DNA of 7,078 nt from assembly GCA_021801945.1 (NCBI GenBank), contig JAKABE010000171.1:1-7078 (forward strand), given 5' to 3'. The stretch comes from Acidobacteriota bacterium (lineage in GTDB: Bacteria; Acidobacteriota; Terriglobia; Terriglobales; Acidobacteriaceae). Shown here one piece after another: positions 760-6,706 of this stretch. How positions within the stretch are numbered: position 1 is the first letter of the stretch; each line of letters begins with the position of its first letter. The notes under the pieces are model-generated. The model ran no database searches. It was not told the DNA's origin and saw only the letters and a list, made by a program, of their open reading frames with translations. The translations under genes were made by a program, and so were the position numbers.

Positions 760-1917
760 ATGCCGACATTTCACGAATTCGAGTGCGCGCTGCAAAAGCG
801 ATTCTTTGAGCGGCGCAGCGTGATCCATGGGTTGGTGGTCTCCCTTGTGGCGAGGCAGCATGTGCTCTTGATCGGTCCTCCAGGGGCCGCCAAGAGCGAA
901 CTGGCGAAGGCGGTGTGTGGCGGTGTCGGTGGAAGGTTCTTCCGCACCACCCTAACCCCGACATCCACCCCGGATGAACTGTTCGGCCCGGTCAGCGCGA
1001 AGCGCATGATCGAGGATGATGTATACGCGAGGAACCTGGACGGGACTCTGGCCACCGCCGACATCGCGGCGGTGGACGAGATCTGGAAGTGCAACGCGGC
1101 CACGCTCAACGGGCTGCTAACCGCAGTCAACGAACGGGAAGTGGTCAACGCCGGGCAGACGGTGCGCATCCCGCTGCGAACCCTTGTCGGCACAAGCAAC
1201 GAGCTGCCGCAGGATGAGTCCCTGACGGCACTATGGGACCGCTTCGGCCTCAGATTCCGGGTGGACTACTTGAAGGACGCCGGCAACTTCCTCGATCTGC
1301 TCCGCATGTCCGAGGAGCAGGAGGGACCGACCGGGCCGACACTGACCGAGATCGACGCGGCCTCCCACCTCGTGCCGGACGTCCATTGGGACGGGGTGCG
1401 TGAGACCTTCACGAAACTGTGGGTCGCGGCGCGCCACGTGTGGCGGGTCGCCGTCTCAGACCGGAGGTGGAGGCTCTGCCTCCGTCTCTGTCAGGCGAAT
1501 GCCCTCCTCGACGGTCGGAATGAGGTCCTGCCGCAGGACCTGCTCATCCTGAGCGATGCGCTCTGGGAAGAGCCGGATCAGCGGGGGAAGATCCGCCGGG
1601 GCCTGTTCGACATCGTGGATCCGGCTCTTGGAGAAGCGGAGGACCTTCTCGACGCCGCCGAAGAGCAGTGGATTACCGTAATAGCGGCTGACGTTTCCGG
1701 CAGTGACGACCCGGACCAGAATCGCAAGACTATGGATGCGTTTGATGAGTCGGCCAAGAAGCTCAAGAAAATCGCCAGAAGGTTGCAGGAATTGCGCGAC
1801 GGAGCCATCGGGCGTGGACAGGACGCATCCGCGATTGAGGATGTGCTGGACCGCACGAATGGATATACAAAAGAAGCGTTCATGCGATTTAACACGATGC
1901 GGTACGGGAGGGCGTAG
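760..1917 (+). CDS. MoxR-family AAA+ ATPase (RavA-like)
   Basis: The 385-residue product carries a complete AAA+ core near its N-terminus. Walker A is GPPGAAKS (39-46). Walker B is AAVDE, with D106 and E107 as metal-binding and catalytic residues. A sensor 1 asparagine is N147 in GTSNELP, an arginine-finger candidate is R161 in ALWDRF, and a sensor 2-like SDRRW has R235/R236, followed by a lid containing ALLDGRNEVLPQDL. This is the RavA branch of the MoxR family: cytosolic hexameric ATPases that act as chaperones with a VWA partner. The C-terminal part (about 290-385) is charged and helical and may hold a short coiled coil. ATG 760 was chosen because AAGGAG lies nine bases upstream. The open frame extends back to 280 but crosses a terminator and is not protein-like. 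Its stop is one base from the start of the VWA gene, so the two are translated together. The partner protein it remodels is unknown. Confidence 0.93.
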   Translation: MPTFHEFECALQKRFFERRSVIHGLVVSLVARQHVLLIGPPGAAKSELAKAVCGGVGGRFFRTTLTPTSTPDELFGPVSAKRMIEDDVYARNLDGTLATADIAAVDEIWKCNAATLNGLLTAVNEREVVNAGQTVRIPLRTLVGTSNELPQDESLTALWDRFGLRFRVDYLKDAGNFLDLLRMSEEQEGPTGPTLTEIDAASHLVPDVHWDGVRETFTKLWVAARHVWRVAVSDRRWRLCLRLCQANALLDGRNEVLPQDLLILSDALWEEPDQRGKIRRGLFDIVDPALGEAEDLLDAAEEQWITVIAADVSGSDDPDQNRKTMDAFDESAKKLKKIARRLQELRDGAIGRGQDASAIEDVLDRTNGYTKEAFMRFNTMRYGRA

Positions 1918-1918
1918 T

Positions 1919-3259
1919 GTGCCTGAGGAACCGGAAGGGGAGCATCGGGTCGTTGACCACGACCACTTCGATGATCTGGTCTGGCGCGATACCCTGGGTG
2001 AGTGCCAGCCGCTGCGCGACCTGCGTGTTTCGGGCCGAAAGATACACCCGGGATTTGGGGGGCTGCTTGCGGACCTACATGCCGGACTCTACAAGCCAGA
2101 CCCCCACTTGGTGGACGACGTTCCCCCTCAGGCTGGGTGGCAGCGATCTGCTGTCGAGAAGTCTTGGGAGGGTGCGGAATGGGGACAGACGCGGGAGACA
2201 TCCGTCCTGGACGAGATGCTCTCCGCGATCGGCACCATGGCCGCCGGCGCGGCCGCCCTTGAGGAACTCAAGAAGGCGGCGCGGCCAGAGGGTGCTACCC
2301 CCGGATCCGCCGCACCCCCCGAGGTGACACCGCAACAGACCAGGATGATCGCCCGCGCGGCCGCCAAAGCCGCAAAGCAGGAGGTTGCCGACGCTGAGGC
2401 GGTGCTGGCGTCGTGGGGGCTGGACCCCGGGGCACTGCAGCATCTGCCGCTGGGGAAGCGCGTGGAACTGGCCCAGAAGCTGGCCAAGACCGCGAAACTG
2501 CGGCAGATGGCGGACATTGTAGGCGAAATGCGGTCCCTGGCCAGCGGCTTACATCAGCGCCGCGTCACGGCCAAGCCTTCCGAGGTGGTGGGCGTCGAGA
2601 CCGGCAGCGATCTCAGGCGTCTCCTGCCCTCCGAACTAGCAATGCTGGCCCACCCGCAACTGCGGTATGAGGCCGTGCGCCGGCTGGTGACCGGTCAGGC
2701 GCTGCAGTGGCAGAAGGCCACCCGGGAGAAGCAGGGCCGGGGGCCGCTGGTGGTGTGCTGTGATACGTCGAACAGCACCGCGGGCCAGGTGGAGATGATG
2801 ATCAAGGGGGTCGCGATGGGCCTGCTCGAGATCGCCAGGCGGCAGGGACGCAACTTTGCCGGCGTGGTGTTCAGCAGCAGGGCGCAGATCGAGACCTTCG
2901 AGTTCAGTGGCGGCAAGGTCGATCCGGAGGCCCTGCTTGAATTCGCCACCCTATTTTTCAACGGGGGAACGGACTGGGAGGCGCCGCTGACCGAAGCCCT
3001 GCGGCTGCAGCAGCAGTCGCCGTACCGGAATGGTGACATCGTGCTCATCACGGACGGCATCTGTGCCCTGAGCCCAGAATTCACCGCGGCTTTGGCAGAG
3101 GAGAAGGAGCGGCGCAAGGTGCACCTCGTCGGCGTCCTGGTGGGATCCGACCGCTCCGACACGATGCAGTTCTGTGATGCCGTGATCCAGACGTCGGACT
3201 TGGCTCGGGTGGCGGCTGACATCCTGGCGACGGTGGTCGAGGATCCCGGGGCGGCCTGA
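1919..3259 (+). CDS. VWA-domain protein, ViaA-like partner of the MoxR ATPase
   Basis: The product has 446 residues. The C-terminal third is a von Willebrand factor A domain with a full metal-ion-dependent adhesion site: DTSNS (D282, S284, S286), T351 in NGGTDW and D379 in ITDG. The stretch before it, with RLLPSEL and a helical run ending in ALQWQ, resembles the region preceding the VWA domain in ViaA, the partner of RavA. The N-terminal half is acidic, then rich in Ala/Glu/Lys helices that could be coiled. The GTG start at 1919 follows the MoxR stop codon TAG (1915-1917) by one base, with GGGAGGG (1905-1911) as RBS; a frame starting at GTG 1917 is a shadow. ViaA-type proteins bind the ATPase and direct it to substrates, so a cytosolic chaperone complex is likely. 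No signal peptide or membrane segment is seen. VWA identity is certain; the ViaA subgroup is likely. Confidence 0.92.
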   Translation: MPEEPEGEHRVVDHDHFDDLVWRDTLGECQPLRDLRVSGRKIHPGFGGLLADLHAGLYKPDPHLVDDVPPQAGWQRSAVEKSWEGAEWGQTRETSVLDEMLSAIGTMAAGAAALEELKKAARPEGATPGSAAPPEVTPQQTRMIARAAAKAAKQEVADAEAVLASWGLDPGALQHLPLGKRVELAQKLAKTAKLRQMADIVGEMRSLASGLHQRRVTAKPSEVVGVETGSDLRRLLPSELAMLAHPQLRYEAVRRLVTGQALQWQKATREKQGRGPLVVCCDTSNSTAGQVEMMIKGVAMGLLEIARRQGRNFAGVVFSSRAQIETFEFSGGKVDPEALLEFATLFFNGGTDWEAPLTEALRLQQQSPYRNGDIVLITDGICALSPEFTAALAEEKERRKVHLVGVLVGSDRSDTMQFCDAVIQTSDLARVAADILATVVEDPGAA

Positions 3260-3374
3260 GTGTTATTCTGAGTCTGGGTTCGTAGTAGGTTGATCTGGTA
3301 CGACGACCATCGTAGACGACCTGTCGGCCTTCGGCTTTAAGACAGCCACCGCGGGGCCAGAGAAGGGTGCTGAG
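3260..3374 (+). promoter_or_regulatory. Intergenic hairpins after the VWA gene
   Basis: This is the first part of the only large gap in the operon. It has TACGA (3299-3303) with TCGTA (3310-3314), and CTGTC (3321-3325) with GACAG (3341-3345), the latter enclosing a smaller GCC-TTC-GGC stem (3327-3335). Neither is followed by a T run, so they are not typical terminators. They could stabilise or process the mRNA, or belong to a leader for the next gene. A TTGATC (3290-3295) has only a poor -10 partner, so no promoter is called. Confidence 0.35.
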
Positions 3375-3470
3375 ATGTGGATTCCGTGCGCCCTTCTGGG
3401 GGCCTGGGCCGTGGACCCGGGGATATGGAGCGCGTACGGGCCACTGGCCGTCGTGCTGGCCCGAATGTGA
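3375..3470 (+). CDS. Possible 31-residue hydrophobic peptide
   Basis: ATG 3375 opens a 31-codon frame ending at TGA 3468-3470. GAAGG (3362-3366) sits eight bases upstream, which is good spacing. The peptide begins MWIPCALLGAW and ends LAVVLARM. It is dominated by Ala, Leu, Val, Trp and Gly, with one Arg near the end and one Asp near the middle, compatible with a single short membrane helix or a leader peptide. It lies alone in the gap between the VWA and DUF6744-like genes and stops 49 bases before the next start. No known family is recognised. In GC-rich DNA a frame of this length is common by chance, so the RBS and the hydrophobic pattern are the only support. Confidence 0.35.
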   Translation: MWIPCALLGAWAVDPGIWSAYGPLAVVLARM

Positions 3471-3489
3471 CCGGGGGAGGCGCCGATTG

Positions 3490-3512
3490 CCGGCGTCCCC
3501 GCCGGAAAGGGG
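3490..3512 (+). promoter_or_regulatory. Hairpin abutting the RBS of the DUF6744-like gene
   Basis: CCGGCG (3490-3495) pairs perfectly with CGCCGG (3500-3505) across a TCCC loop, and the RBS AAAGGGGG (3505-3512 region) starts directly after the stem. The C run at 3497-3500 could pair instead with the G run of the RBS, which would hide it. This gives a simple way to modulate translation of the gene starting at 3520. Whether it does so cannot be told from sequence. Confidence 0.4.
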
Positions 3513-3519
3513 GATTTGC

Positions 3520-4557
3520 GTGTCTACTGCCATTGAGATGAAGAACATCTTCGGAAAGACCTTTGGCCGCTCCAACGTCGCGGCCGTCGTGCTCCCGGAG
3601 ATCGAGGAAGGCGACAGCCCGGAGGTGCAGAGCGATGCTTTCGTTGGACAACTCTTCTTCTTCAGCATTCCGGCGACGCTGAAAATTGCCCCGCTGGCAT
3701 TAGCGGAAGGCTTCAAGACCGCTGGCATCGACTCGAAGTACCTGCCGCAGCCGATTCACCCGTCCAACGCGTTTCGCAGCGCCTCGTCGACGCTGAAGCG
3801 GGACGAGGAGATGCCGGTCAACGGGCACTCCGCACACGTTTCTCTGCTGGTGCGCGAGGTAGGGGACGACGCGACGAATATAGTGCGACACATCGTGGTG
3901 GAGATTGCGGACAAAGAGCATGTCCGCCTCCTGTACACGGAGGCGGCGCAACTCGAGCTTGTCGGTTCCGATGTCACCGTGTCCGAATTGCCAGGCATGG
4001 CGGAACTGCCAGACACCGTGGCGAATATCGTGCGGGAATCCATTGATGGGTTCCCTGCGCGGTTCAGCGAGTATCTGGAGAATCTCAACGACGGCTATAT
4101 CCGGCGGGCCATCACCGCCATGATGCGTGCCGAACACATCATCCGGCTGCGCCGCGACGGGGTAGTTTACTTCGCCCTGCAAGCGCACAAACACGTTGTC
4201 GATCAACTGGCCGACCTGTTCGAGTGGATGCAGCCGGGTTCAGCTGAGTTCCGCGACCTTCCCCTGATCGACGTGCGCAAACAGCGTCAGATGGTAGTCC
4301 AGGAAACCGCCAGGCATGTCCACGGCGAGGTGGATAATCTAGTGCGGGAGATTGATAAGCTGCTGCTTCGTAAGAAACAGAACGGCGCAAAGATTCGATC
4401 CAAGACAGTCAGCAAATATCTGGAGGAACTCGGGCGGCTCACACAGTTGGTGACCGAGTATCGGCAAGCGACCGGGGACAAGATCGCGGAGGCAGTGTCC
4501 GCACTTGATCTGCTCCGAATGCAGGCGACCGAACTGCAGATGGAGGCCGACGACTGA
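3520..4557 (+). CDS. DUF6744-like protein, putative MoxR-VWA partner
   Basis: The product has 345 residues and no recognised catalytic motif. The N-terminal half (about 1-165) alternates predicted strands and helices. The middle (about 185-245) is helical and includes an RRDGVVYFAL segment. The C-terminal third (about 260-345) is a charged helical stretch rich in Lys, Arg, Glu and Gln that probably forms a coiled coil. No signal peptide or membrane segment is seen. From memory the overall pattern resembles DUF6744 proteins, which have no assigned function; I could not verify this. GTG 3520 was chosen because a strong AAAGGGGG lies seven bases upstream. The open frame back to 3367 overlaps the RBS and hairpin and is not protein-like. 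Its place after a MoxR ATPase and VWA protein makes it a candidate client or adaptor of that chaperone pair. Confidence 0.85.
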   Translation: MSTAIEMKNIFGKTFGRSNVAAVVLPEIEEGDSPEVQSDAFVGQLFFFSIPATLKIAPLALAEGFKTAGIDSKYLPQPIHPSNAFRSASSTLKRDEEMPVNGHSAHVSLLVREVGDDATNIVRHIVVEIADKEHVRLLYTEAAQLELVGSDVTVSELPGMAELPDTVANIVRESIDGFPARFSEYLENLNDGYIRRAITAMMRAEHIIRLRRDGVVYFALQAHKHVVDQLADLFEWMQPGSAEFRDLPLIDVRKQRQMVVQETARHVHGEVDNLVREIDKLLLRKKQNGAKIRSKTVSKYLEELGRLTQLVTEYRQATGDKIAEAVSALDLLRMQATELQMEADD

Positions 4558-4577
4558 GAAGGACCAGATGGAGGCGA

Positions 4578-4820
4578 GTGGGCTATATGGAGATACGTCT
4601 GCTGCAACGAGCGAACGCCGAGGGCTGGCCTGGTTATGAAGAGGACGCCGACATCTCTGCCAATCTGGCGGCCGACAAACTTACGGAATTTGCCAAGGAG
4701 ATCGCGGAGGCCAGGAAGATTCCGTATGGTGTCGCTCTGGCGATGATCTACCAGATCGCGGTACAGCGGATCGACTGGGGCGAGATTGATGAGGAGACCG
4801 GCGAGGAACCGGGCGACTAG
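4578..4820 (+). CDS. Small acidic hypothetical protein
   Basis: This 80-residue acidic protein has a predicted helical centre (LAADKLTEFAKEIAEARK, then VALAMIYQIAVQRI) and an acidic tail EIDEETGEEPGD. I do not recognise a family. It follows the DUF6744-like gene by 20 bases. GTG 4578 is preceded by ATGGAGGCGA, the same ten bases that precede the start of the kinase-like gene at 4888, which supports this start despite the short RBS spacing. ATG 4587 in the same frame is the alternative and would give 77 residues. The size, acidity and amphipathic helices fit a small accessory or adaptor protein, but no function can be given. Confidence 0.75.
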   Translation: MGYMEIRLLQRANAEGWPGYEEDADISANLAADKLTEFAKEIAEARKIPYGVALAMIYQIAVQRIDWGEIDEETGEEPGD

Positions 4821-4843
4821 TCGCTCCGGGTAGGTTTGCGATG

Positions 4844-4877
4844 GCAGAGGGCCGGTGGGTAACCACCGGCCTTCTGC
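4844..4877 (+). promoter_or_regulatory. Long hairpin with a GNRA-type loop between two genes
   Basis: A 15-base-pair stem runs from 4844-4858 to 4863-4877 with one G-T wobble (4849/4872), closed by GTAA, which as RNA is a GNRA tetraloop. It lies 23 bases after the stop of the small acidic gene and ends only ten bases before the ATG of the next gene. There is no T run, so it is a poor intrinsic terminator on either strand. It may act in mRNA processing or stability, or separate expression of the genes on either side. Confidence 0.7.
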
Positions 4878-4887
4878 ATGGAGGCGA

Positions 4888-5787
4888 ATGCCGTGCGGTT
4901 GGCCCTCTGGCGTGGGCAGGACGAGATTAGAGATGCATTGGGGGCCGGGAGAAGGGATTCCGCTGGCTGCTGAGGCCCGGCCACTCTGCGATGCGCTCAA
5001 CCGGGCCGGCTTCACCCGTGATCTTGGACGGAGCCCGGTCCGGTGTCCGTGGATGTTCTTGGTCGCGGATGGTGGCGACGCGCTTCAGTCACTGGAGGTG
5101 CAGAAAACAACGCTCTGCGATCTGGTGGATTCCGGCCGGCTGCTGGTCCTGGGGCACGGATTTGCAGGATCCTCGACGGTGTACTTGATGCCGGACGGCC
5201 GGGCCGTCAAGGAGTACTTGCCGTTCGTCAACAAGGTGGAGCCCACGGTGCGGGGACTCCGGGAATATGAGGTACTTCACCAGGTGCGGGAGTTGCCAGG
5301 CGTGCCCCACCAGGTGGAATTGGTGATCGAAGGGGATCGGGTGTTCTTGCTCCGGGAGGCCGGAGAGGAACCAGCCTTTTGGAATGACCGGCACTTGGCC
5401 GAATTGCAGGTGGCCATGGCCGGGTTGGTGCGCCGGCGCATCACCCTGGGAGACCGGGCGCAGGCCATGGTCCGGGCTGATGGGTCGGCATTTTTCTCCG
5501 ATTTCGACCATGCCAGATCTAGCCTGGATTGGAAAGAAGCCGACCGCTGGCATGACGCGGATTCGAACTACCGATGCTTCCTGCGAGACCAGGGCCTTGC
5601 GGAGCGGCCCTTGCTCGGGATGCTTGAGTATTTCGATCGTGAGTATTCCGCTCAGATTGCTAAAGGCGGTGCCGTCGCGGAAATGTACGCGCGCTTGCGC
5701 GAACGGCAGCGGAACCAGTTAGAGAGGGCCAGGGCTTGTTATAGCGGGAGGGGAACAGAGATTGTTTCTGAATTTGCCGGAGGATAG
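4888..5787 (+). CDS. Divergent protein-kinase-fold protein, possibly a pseudokinase
   Basis: The 299-residue product shows kinase-like landmarks in order. They are a glycine-rich loop GHGFAGSSTVY (from G89), an ATP-lysine candidate K108 in AVKEY, a helix-C glutamate candidate E126 or E128, a hinge-like VFLLREAGEE, a catalytic-loop-like LGDRAQAMV with D189, and a metal-binding SDFD with D205. DFD replaces the usual DFG, and the asparagine expected five residues after the catalytic aspartate is a methionine (M194). It may therefore be inactive or use different chemistry. The first 80 or so residues match nothing I know, and the tail is helical and Arg/Gln-rich. ATG 4888 was chosen because the same ATGGAGGCGA precedes it as precedes the previous gene; an upstream GTG at 4855 lies inside the hairpin. 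Its last 26 bases overlap the next gene. Aminoglycoside-phosphotransferase-like folds are an alternative reading. Confidence 0.85.
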   Translation: MPCGWPSGVGRTRLEMHWGPGEGIPLAAEARPLCDALNRAGFTRDLGRSPVRCPWMFLVADGGDALQSLEVQKTTLCDLVDSGRLLVLGHGFAGSSTVYLMPDGRAVKEYLPFVNKVEPTVRGLREYEVLHQVRELPGVPHQVELVIEGDRVFLLREAGEEPAFWNDRHLAELQVAMAGLVRRRITLGDRAQAMVRADGSAFFSDFDHARSSLDWKEADRWHDADSNYRCFLRDQGLAERPLLGMLEYFDREYSAQIAKGGAVAEMYARLRERQRNQLERARACYSGRGTEIVSEFAGG

Positions 5788-5995
5788 CCAAGCAGGTATA
5801 GTGCCCACCGAAGCTTTCGGTGAAGAGATGCTGCCGGAAAAGCCTGCGGACACAAGTGGACTGATCCGTGGGATGCGCATGGTATGCGTTCTCTGGGGTG
5901 TTGTGCTGCTCGTTCTCTGCTTTGTGTTTCATTGGGAGATAGTGGGGATAGTGGTTGCGGGAATCATGTTTCTTCTAACCATAAGCGGAATGTAA
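5762..5995 (+). CDS. Small membrane protein with two helices
   Basis: The product has 77 residues. An acidic N-terminal part (1-33) is followed by two hydrophobic segments (about 40-56 and 60-76) joined by a tight HWE turn; the protein ends immediately after the second. R36 and R39 before the first helix suggest that both ends face the cytoplasm. There is no signal peptide or known family. TTG 5762 is preferred because GGGAGGGGA lies about seven bases upstream, which makes the gene overlap the kinase-like gene by 26 bases. GTG 5801 and ATG 5828 are weaker in-frame alternatives that leave both helices intact. Its stop TAA shares a base with an ATG (5995) of the next frame, so the following gene may be translationally coupled. 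It could anchor the kinase-like protein at the membrane, an inference from gene order only. Confidence 0.72.
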   Translation: MFLNLPEDSQAGIVPTEAFGEEMLPEKPADTSGLIRGMRMVCVLWGVVLLVLCFVFHWEIVGIVVAGIMFLLTISGM

Positions 5996-6030
5996 TGCGG
6001 GCCGGAGTGGTGGGAACGAGGATGATTGGG

Positions 6031-6336
6031 ATGCCTAAGTTCGTGTGTCGCTGCAGAAATGACACCTTTAGGTGCAAGGCATGCGTGGCTGGATATGTTG
6101 ACGCCGAGGTGCGTACGGCGGAGGACGGGGGCTTCGAAGAAATACTCGTCGAAACGGACGACGCAGAAGCCGAGAGCTTTGCAGGCCCATTCGTATGTAC
6201 TAAATGCGGCGCCGAGTACGATGTCATCCCTCCCGAGGGCTGGACGGGCTGGGAGCCGTCCGAGCTACGGCTTACGTCCGCGCAGCGCATTGCGCTTGGC
6301 GAGACGCCACTGATTCCGGATGTCGCGGCACGGTGA
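6031..6336 (+). CDS. Small cysteine-rich, zinc-ribbon-like protein
   Basis: The product has 101 residues. It has C6 and C8 (CRC), C15 and C18 (CKAC) and C56 and C59 (CTKC): three paired cysteine sites that could bind one or two zinc ions. The middle is acidic and the C-terminus has no recognised motif. Small proteins ending their core in a CTKCG knuckle are common in phages and mobile elements, usually without known function; nucleic-acid or protein binding is possible. ATG 6031 has GAGG nine bases upstream. ATG 6022 and ATG 5995 are in frame; the latter overlaps the stop of the membrane-protein gene (TAATG) and would add twelve residues that are not clearly conserved-looking. Whichever start is used, it is the last gene of the main operon. 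Confidence 0.75.
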   Translation: MPKFVCRCRNDTFRCKACVAGYVDAEVRTAEDGGFEEILVETDDAEAESFAGPFVCTKCGAEYDVIPPEGWTGWEPSELRLTSAQRIALGETPLIPDVAAR

Positions 6337-6409: not shown

Positions 6410-6706
6410 ATGTCGATGCACAAAGTGCAACTCGCGGTGTTGAATGAGGACGAAAATAGAATCATGCAAAAAATACTCCGGCGAGCAGAACAATTGGGAG
6501 TAAAAAACAACAAGGCAAGGTTCGACGCCATGAGCCTGGAAATGGACCTGCTGGCCGTGCACGCCCGCACCCCGCTGCGCCTGGCCGCTTTGGCCAACAG
6601 TGGCAGCTTCAATTTTTTGCATGATGTCCTGGGTATTGTCCGCCACTTGAACCGCCGTACCGGTCTGCTGGAAAATTGTTTCGTTCCCCGATCGGCTGCC
6701 CGATAA
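6410..6706 (+). CDS. DUF6874-like small protein
   Basis: The product has 98 residues with a helical N-terminus and a C-terminal part that from memory resembles DUF6874. The features recalled are the order MSLEMDLLAVHA, PLRLAAL, FNFLHDVLGI, HLNRRTG and a C-terminal CFVPR. The family has no known function and I could not check the match. ATG 6410 was chosen; ATG 6416 is two codons later. The first 35 codons are A-rich with runs of AAA and AAT, while the rest is GC-rich with GCC/CTG preference, an abrupt change within one short gene. It is separated from the main operon by 73 bases, so it may belong to another unit. Confidence 0.7.
   Translation: MSMHKVQLAVLNEDENRIMQKILRRAEQLGVKNNKARFDAMSLEMDLLAVHARTPLRLAALANSGSFNFLHDVLGIVRHLNRRTGLLENCFVPRSAAR

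Follow-up and report, generated by a model that had tools for sequence, protein, structure and literature searches.

Among described systems, the RavA-ViaA system of Escherichia coli and its kin comes closest to the locus presented here, with a MoxR-type AAA+ ATPase encoded beside a von Willebrand factor A (VWA) protein that bears a metal ion-dependent adhesion site (MIDAS). A MoxR ATPase, a VWA protein and a third conserved protein also come together in the MoxR-vWA ternary conflict systems, for which VMAP, iSTAND, FtsH and beta-propeller kinds are named (PMC7159879). In tailed viruses, AAA-VWA pairs of the type seen in the haloarchaeal virus HVTV-1 have been called CobST in print, and such pairs are placed in Druskaviridae, Saparoviridae and cyanophages (PMC8651126). 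We analysed a stretch of 7,078 nucleotides from an Acidobacteriota contig (JAKABE010000171.1), hereafter the window, in which the genes of a MoxR ATPase and a VWA protein are followed by one of the family DUF6744. MoxR, VWA and DUF6744 form a conserved module of three genes that is real and recurs across phyla and replicon types; it is a variation on the known MoxR-VWA theme in which DUF6744 is a new third member. In the window, the module consists of the following genes:

760..1917, + strand: P0001, MoxR-type AAA+ ATPase, RavA-like (PF20030, RavA model, phrog_19600, RavA structures); an alternative start, ATG, lies at 751
1919..3259, + strand: P0002, VWA (MIDAS) adaptor, ViaA-like (ViaA model, phrog_24053, MIDAS letters)
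3520..4557, + strand: P0003, DUF6744, putative third core subunit (PF20529, AlphaFold2 model, MoxR-VWA nearby in other replicons)

A preliminary description of this DNA, made from the letters, had read the first two products as a RavA-like ATPase and a ViaA-like VWA protein with intact motifs, and the family searches bore this out. P0001 matched bpMoxR (PF20030) of Pfam at E 5.8e-44, the RavA model of NCBIfam at E 3.3e-49, phrog_19600 of PHROG at E 1.5e-64 and the sequences of solved RavA structures at E 5.6e-46 (residues 8-279). P0002 matched the ViaA model (E 1.3e-27), phrog_24053 (PHROG, E 4.8e-51) and, precisely at the Pfam cut-off, VWA_2 (27 bits, E 7.3e-06). RavA and ViaA are the closest curated models and solved structures to the window pair, and RavA-like AAA+ and lid domains are present in P0001 by similarity, far under equivalog level (168 bits vs a cut-off of 681); P0002 did not reach that level for ViaA (97 bits vs 500). 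The letters GPPGAAKS, VDE, N and DR are intact in P0001, as is DTSNS...GGT...TDG in P0002, and among them we take the first three to be the Walker A, Walker B and sensor motifs and the last to be the MIDAS. In the rows aligned at that stage (22 VWA and 20 ATPase, rather than all 24 loci counted below), the MIDAS pattern DxSxS/GGT/DG was retained in 22/22, the Walker B Asp-Glu in 19/20, the finger-region Asp-Arg in 20/20 and the sensor Asn in 18/20.

The window pair also departs from RavA-ViaA. Its ATPase has 385 residues vs about 498 for RavA, and the match to the RavA structures stops at residue 279, which corresponds to RavA residue 295. The C-terminal region of RavA is the one that binds LdcI. 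Unlike RavA-ViaA, the window block has a third gene, that of DUF6744, and the replicons on which the block is found include plasmids and phages.

The identity of this third protein, suggested as DUF6744-like in the preliminary description, is clear: P0003 matched PF20529 at E 4.2e-31, with 108.5 bits vs a cut-off of 27. Pfam states no function for the family. The AlphaFold2 model of P0003 (mean pLDDT 85.6, pTM 0.76) is confident except for the first 39 residues, and is composed of a beta-rich domain and a C-terminal helical hairpin. No solved structure matched it at E 1e-3. Matches to four viral predicted structures, in contrast, ranged from 3e-14 to 5e-12, at identities of 13-16%. One of the four is L7TK87 of HVTV-1, which, paired by length, is most likely the product of gene 25 (383 residues). 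Gene 25 is a true DUF6744 gene (PF20529, E 3e-19), for which hhalign gave 98%, vs 0.3% for a control protein of similar length. In our literature searches, with most subscription papers and preprints outside their coverage, the name DUF6744 was absent and no paper recognisably describing the MoxR-VWA-DUF6744 trio was found; the link of this family to MoxR-VWA is new here.

The recurrence of the block was followed in mobile replicons and in genomes. By tblastn with P0003 against named phage and plasmid records, which also define the assignment to mobile replicons, one phage (Moorella phage MTATph1) and nine plasmids were found, the plasmids including near-copies (the two from Nocardia, and two of the three from Streptomyces). 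MoxR and VWA were near DUF6744 in 9/9 plasmid records and in the phage record; Brevibacillus marinus is another host with a plasmid bearing the block. The search with PF20529 gave 14 positive genomes with 16 places among 154 genomes (the class of the nearest relative), and 14 positive genomes among 398 (the phylum). In the phylum search, the genomes over the cut-off numbered 12 and held 13 places, of which one had already come up in the class search. Among these 28 distinct places, all above the cut-off, 13 were fetched with both MoxR and VWA present (L042, L044, L047-L049, L055, L056, L058, L060, L063, L064, L070 and L111), although the contig of L060 ends within VWA. Three more had VWA only, near a contig end (L040, L041, L050), and four were on contigs under 4.4 kb, too short to judge (L043, L045, L057, L059).

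Counting the window, the nine plasmids, the phage and the 13 genome places, all three genes were on one strand in every one of the 24 three-gene loci. The order was MoxR-VWA-DUF6744 in half of them (12/24) and DUF6744-MoxR-VWA in the other half (12/24), and the span was below 6.6 kb in all except L111 (12.9 kb). Because the strand is kept while the order changes, a functional link is favoured over common inheritance of the stretch. In the set of 154 genomes, 10 had both DUF6744 and a close MoxR relative, four had DUF6744 only, two had MoxR only and 138 had neither (Fisher p 4e-11, with genome kinship ignored). In the two MoxR-only genomes, VWA was beside MoxR and no DUF6744 was found in the 10-12 kb fetched, one of the contigs ending inside VWA. 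The proposal that the genes of the window form one functional system is supported, by this recurrence, for MoxR-VWA-DUF6744; it is not supported for the four proteins encoded downstream, none of which was found at the 23 other loci.

A MoxR ATPase, a VWA protein and a third conserved protein are also what the ternary systems combine, which raises the possibility of an anti-phage or inter-element conflict system of that kind. The window MoxR falls within PF20030, a family named after the beta-propeller ternary systems, and the P-loop GXXXTAKS, noted in 2020 for two classes of these systems (PMC7159879), is present in 11/20 aligned ATPases, the window ATPase not being among them. We nevertheless consider this explanation unlikely, as PADLOC gave the ATPase weak matches only (IetA 0.002, mad8 0.019), and neither the window VWA protein nor DUF6744 showed an effector family. 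The third protein here is DUF6744, and no propeller, peptidase or effector family was found in P0001-P0003 with Pfam, PHROG, NCBIfam or PADLOC. No beta-propeller was found C-terminal to VWA, the Pfam matches of P0002 at E<=1 being two VWA families and FIST (0.16). As to the VMAP, iSTAND and FtsH kinds, the matches within the 7-kb window were weak ones of the AAA domain of P0001 (nSTAND1 0.022, FtsH 0.0016), the presence of VMAP or iSTAND models in the libraries being unchecked.

With a probability of about 0.5, we read MoxR-VWA-DUF6744 as a machine of ATPase, adaptor and third subunit, carried mostly by large mobile replicons, with the four downstream genes of the window as local cargo. By analogy with RavA-ViaA, NorQD and related pairs, the MoxR protein would form a hexameric ATP-driven ring, and the VWA protein would dock on it, gripping a client or partner peptide through the metal site of its MIDAS; DUF6744 would be a dedicated third subunit, or a scaffold, through which the ring reaches its client. 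Probably, that client would be a complex that serves replication of the element itself or its nucleotide supply, which we propose from the place of the module, because it is often among such genes. DnaN was within 6 kb of 5/24 blocks (at distances of 22 bases, 156 bases, 442 bases, 1.3 kb and 5.3 kb; Pfam was used to check the identity of one). It was also 6.1 kb from the DUF6744 gene of L065/L066, loci without MoxR-VWA. The neighbours that recurred in 41 clustered loci, with families named from one scanned representative per cluster, were the single-stranded DNA-binding protein SSB (5), a DnaG-type zinc ribbon (5), helicase (4), RadC (4) and topoisomerase (4). Ribonucleotide reductase precedes DUF6744 by 0.2 kb in the Moorella phage (L001, 9375-12849) and by 0.9 kb in HVTV-1 (L116, 5957-10966). 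These two tailed viruses are very distant from each other.

Several observations weigh against this reading. At eight of the 28 genome places (L051-L054, L061, L062, L065, L066), the sequence fetched contained no MoxR and no VWA. Seven of them are divergent or broken (42-49 bits to PF20529 for L051-L054, 62 for the near-identical L065/L066, and a broken gene in L062), and the eighth, L061, on a 3.1-Mb contig of genome G419, has a strong DUF6744 match; its fetched stretch of 20 kb held no MoxR or VWA, and the whole genome gave no match to MoxR at 1e-10. Close MoxR relatives were missing in 4/14 DUF6744 genomes, two of which (G047, G108) show VWA pieces. As for the neighbours, DnaN was not found at 19/24 blocks within the stretch in view, the topoisomerase cluster was confined to loci that lack MoxR or have no more than broken pieces of VWA, and the Aphanizomenon phage CL131 (L119, 1605-5785) has MoxR, VWA and DnaN in a row, free of DUF6744.

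Some side observations concern these same loci. Genome G114 carries two divergent DUF6744 genes (L051, L052) and two MoxR-VWA pairs (L105, L106) on four contigs, and in G358 a MoxR-VWA pair (L107) is on a contig other than that of DUF6744. A transposase-like cluster is common to five DUF6744 loci without MoxR-VWA (L051, L052, L054, L065, L066), and its copy in L052 matches IS605 OrfB / Cas12f1-like families. In CL131, relatives of the gene that precedes MoxR occur in Geobacillus virus E3, among others.

The AAA-VWA pairs of tailed viruses bear on both the reach and the function of the module. In HVTV-1, DUF6744 is at 9.8-11.0 kb and the AAA-VWA pair at 25.6-29.5 kb, and this distance of 14.6 kb sets the virus apart from the compact block. 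The HVTV-1 DUF6744 and VWA genes were found in the same eight phage records, haloarchaeal viruses that are close relatives or duplicates; DUF6744 was not found in HCTV-2 or P-SSM2. For the archaeal viruses, a CobST pair of the cobaltochelatase type, aiding cobalamin synthesis together with the CobN of the host, has been proposed (PMC8651126). Such a role would agree with the match of the HVTV-1 AAA protein to phrog_249 ('porphyrin biosynthesis', E 4.5e-54), with the weak one of P0001 to the same family (0.006), and with the proximity of a ribonucleotide reductase gene to DUF6744 in two viruses. For the module it is nonetheless very unlikely: the window pair is nearest to RavA-ViaA, chelatase models are weak on its ATPase (BchD-ChlD 3.9e-06, BchI-ChlI 0.1), and the CobST-type ATPase escapes the MoxR profile, which had no match to the HVTV-1 AAA protein at E<=1, though the VWA profile weakly matched the HVTV-1 VWA protein (6e-4). 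No CobS/CobT model was among the NCBIfam matches of the window proteins, the presence of such models in the library being unchecked. More tentatively than for the module itself, we suggest that a MoxR/CobS-like ATPase, VWA and DUF6744 may constitute a remodelling machine of ancient origin, present on large plasmids and in tailed viruses of both bacteria and archaea. Its target would be the replication of the element itself or its supply of deoxynucleotides; the Druskaviridae pairs annotated as CobST would then be part of this machine and not of cobalamin synthesis. Several 'phage' records with RavA/ViaA-like genes were also seen (H3-H8, H32-H37, L118); L118 proved to be a contig from a Salmonella genome, and the remaining ones may be host DNA too.

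Viral pairs of this kind have also been connected with particle formation. The p618/p892 proteins of Acidianus two-tailed virus reportedly act as a virion-assembly chaperone. Virion assembly is likewise proposed for the MoxR-VWA pair of jumbo phages (PMC7824862). The existence of viral MoxR-VWA pairs is in line with such a role, as are plasmids L006 and L007, which may be phage-plasmids, with a 'phage antirepressor' near the block of the former and an amidase and a 'putative holin-like toxin' near that of the latter. The block is, however, also present on Streptomyces plasmids and on a Nocardia MOBP plasmid, where it adjoins a conjugative DNA-transfer gene, and no virion gene was found among its annotated neighbours on these replicons. 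In HVTV-1, moreover, the terminase, head and tail genes are at ~60-90 kb, far from DUF6744 and AAA-VWA, and a chaperone of virion assembly is, in our judgement, distinctly unlikely.

The same-strand run of the window continues downstream of the module:

4578..4820, + strand: P0004, small acidic protein, outside the conserved module (no family over cut-off, no relative at other three-gene loci)
4933..5787, + strand: P0005, 'kinase-like', fold unproved, outside the conserved module (family, database and structure searches)
5762..5995, + strand: P0006, small protein with two hydrophobic segments, outside the conserved module (sequence; no relative at other three-gene loci)
5995..6336, + strand: P0007, zinc-ribbon-like, outside the conserved module (Cys pairs; relatives in stretches without MoxR, VWA or DUF6744)
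6410-6706, + strand: DUF6874 gene (PF21779, E 2.3e-26)
6753-, + strand: open reading frame (ORF) that runs off the window (ORF list)

The ORF list and its translations give seven + strand ORFs at 760..6336, as had been described, and the preliminary description had joined all seven into one system with mostly very short spacing. The spacing is short where the VWA gene abuts the end of the MoxR gene (1917 to 1919) and where the P0005, P0006 and P0007 genes overlap one another, but 260 bases separate VWA from DUF6744 and 112 bases the acidic gene from the kinase-like gene. The border of the seven genes is arbitrary, because the run continues past 6336 with the DUF6874 gene and the open ORF. A single seven-gene system, for which the common strand and the overlaps would speak, is extremely improbable. 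With phmmer and tblastn, P0004-P0007 had no match at E<1e-3 in 38 loci, and tblastn in 18 further stretches, which together with the 38 include all 23 other three-gene loci, gave nothing except P0007 relatives in L073 and L074. The acidic and kinase-like proteins had no match in the 154 genomes, in searches run without a positive control, and the latter had none among phages or plasmids. By the criterion of the preliminary description, repeated co-occurrence of at least four of the seven genes, the seven-gene system fails within the data searched; the four downstream genes seem to be unrelated passengers in the window. In the nearest relative, L008 (MoxR 66%, DUF6744 42%), DUF6744 is followed by an ORF that looks methyltransferase-like by eye, and not by any of the four.

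The kinase fold suggested for P0005 is unproved. Its start, ATG 4933, is that of the database protein P0015, and among 5.8 billion proteins it matched only itself and P0016, encoded on a 2.9-kb contig (81% over 37% of P0005). Apart from DUF2509 at 0.078, no Pfam, PHROG, NCBIfam or PADLOC family matched it at E<=1, no meaningful PDB sequence match was obtained, and its AlphaFold2 model, from an alignment of two sequences, had a pLDDT of 41. The acidic, two-helix membrane and zinc-ribbon-like features of P0004, P0006 and P0007 are visible in their sequences, with no family reaching the cut-off in the same four libraries. P0007 has a weak match in the Moorella phage that lies outside the block (tblastn 0.005, phmmer 0.008), and two genome relatives, in a whole 13-kb contig and in 18 kb of a 164-kb contig, with none of the three core genes there. 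One of these relatives carries an internal stop, and its contig has a gene that resembles Zot when read by eye.

Within the loci fetched, the DUF6874 gene has a single relative, which lies on a contig that bears the module (L046/L111), with 52% identity over 65 residues, ~2 kb from DUF6744. A terminator-like hairpin with a T run is present at 95-122, ahead of a gene, and two further hairpins ahead of genes were spotted by eye at ~604-640 and ~4849-4872.

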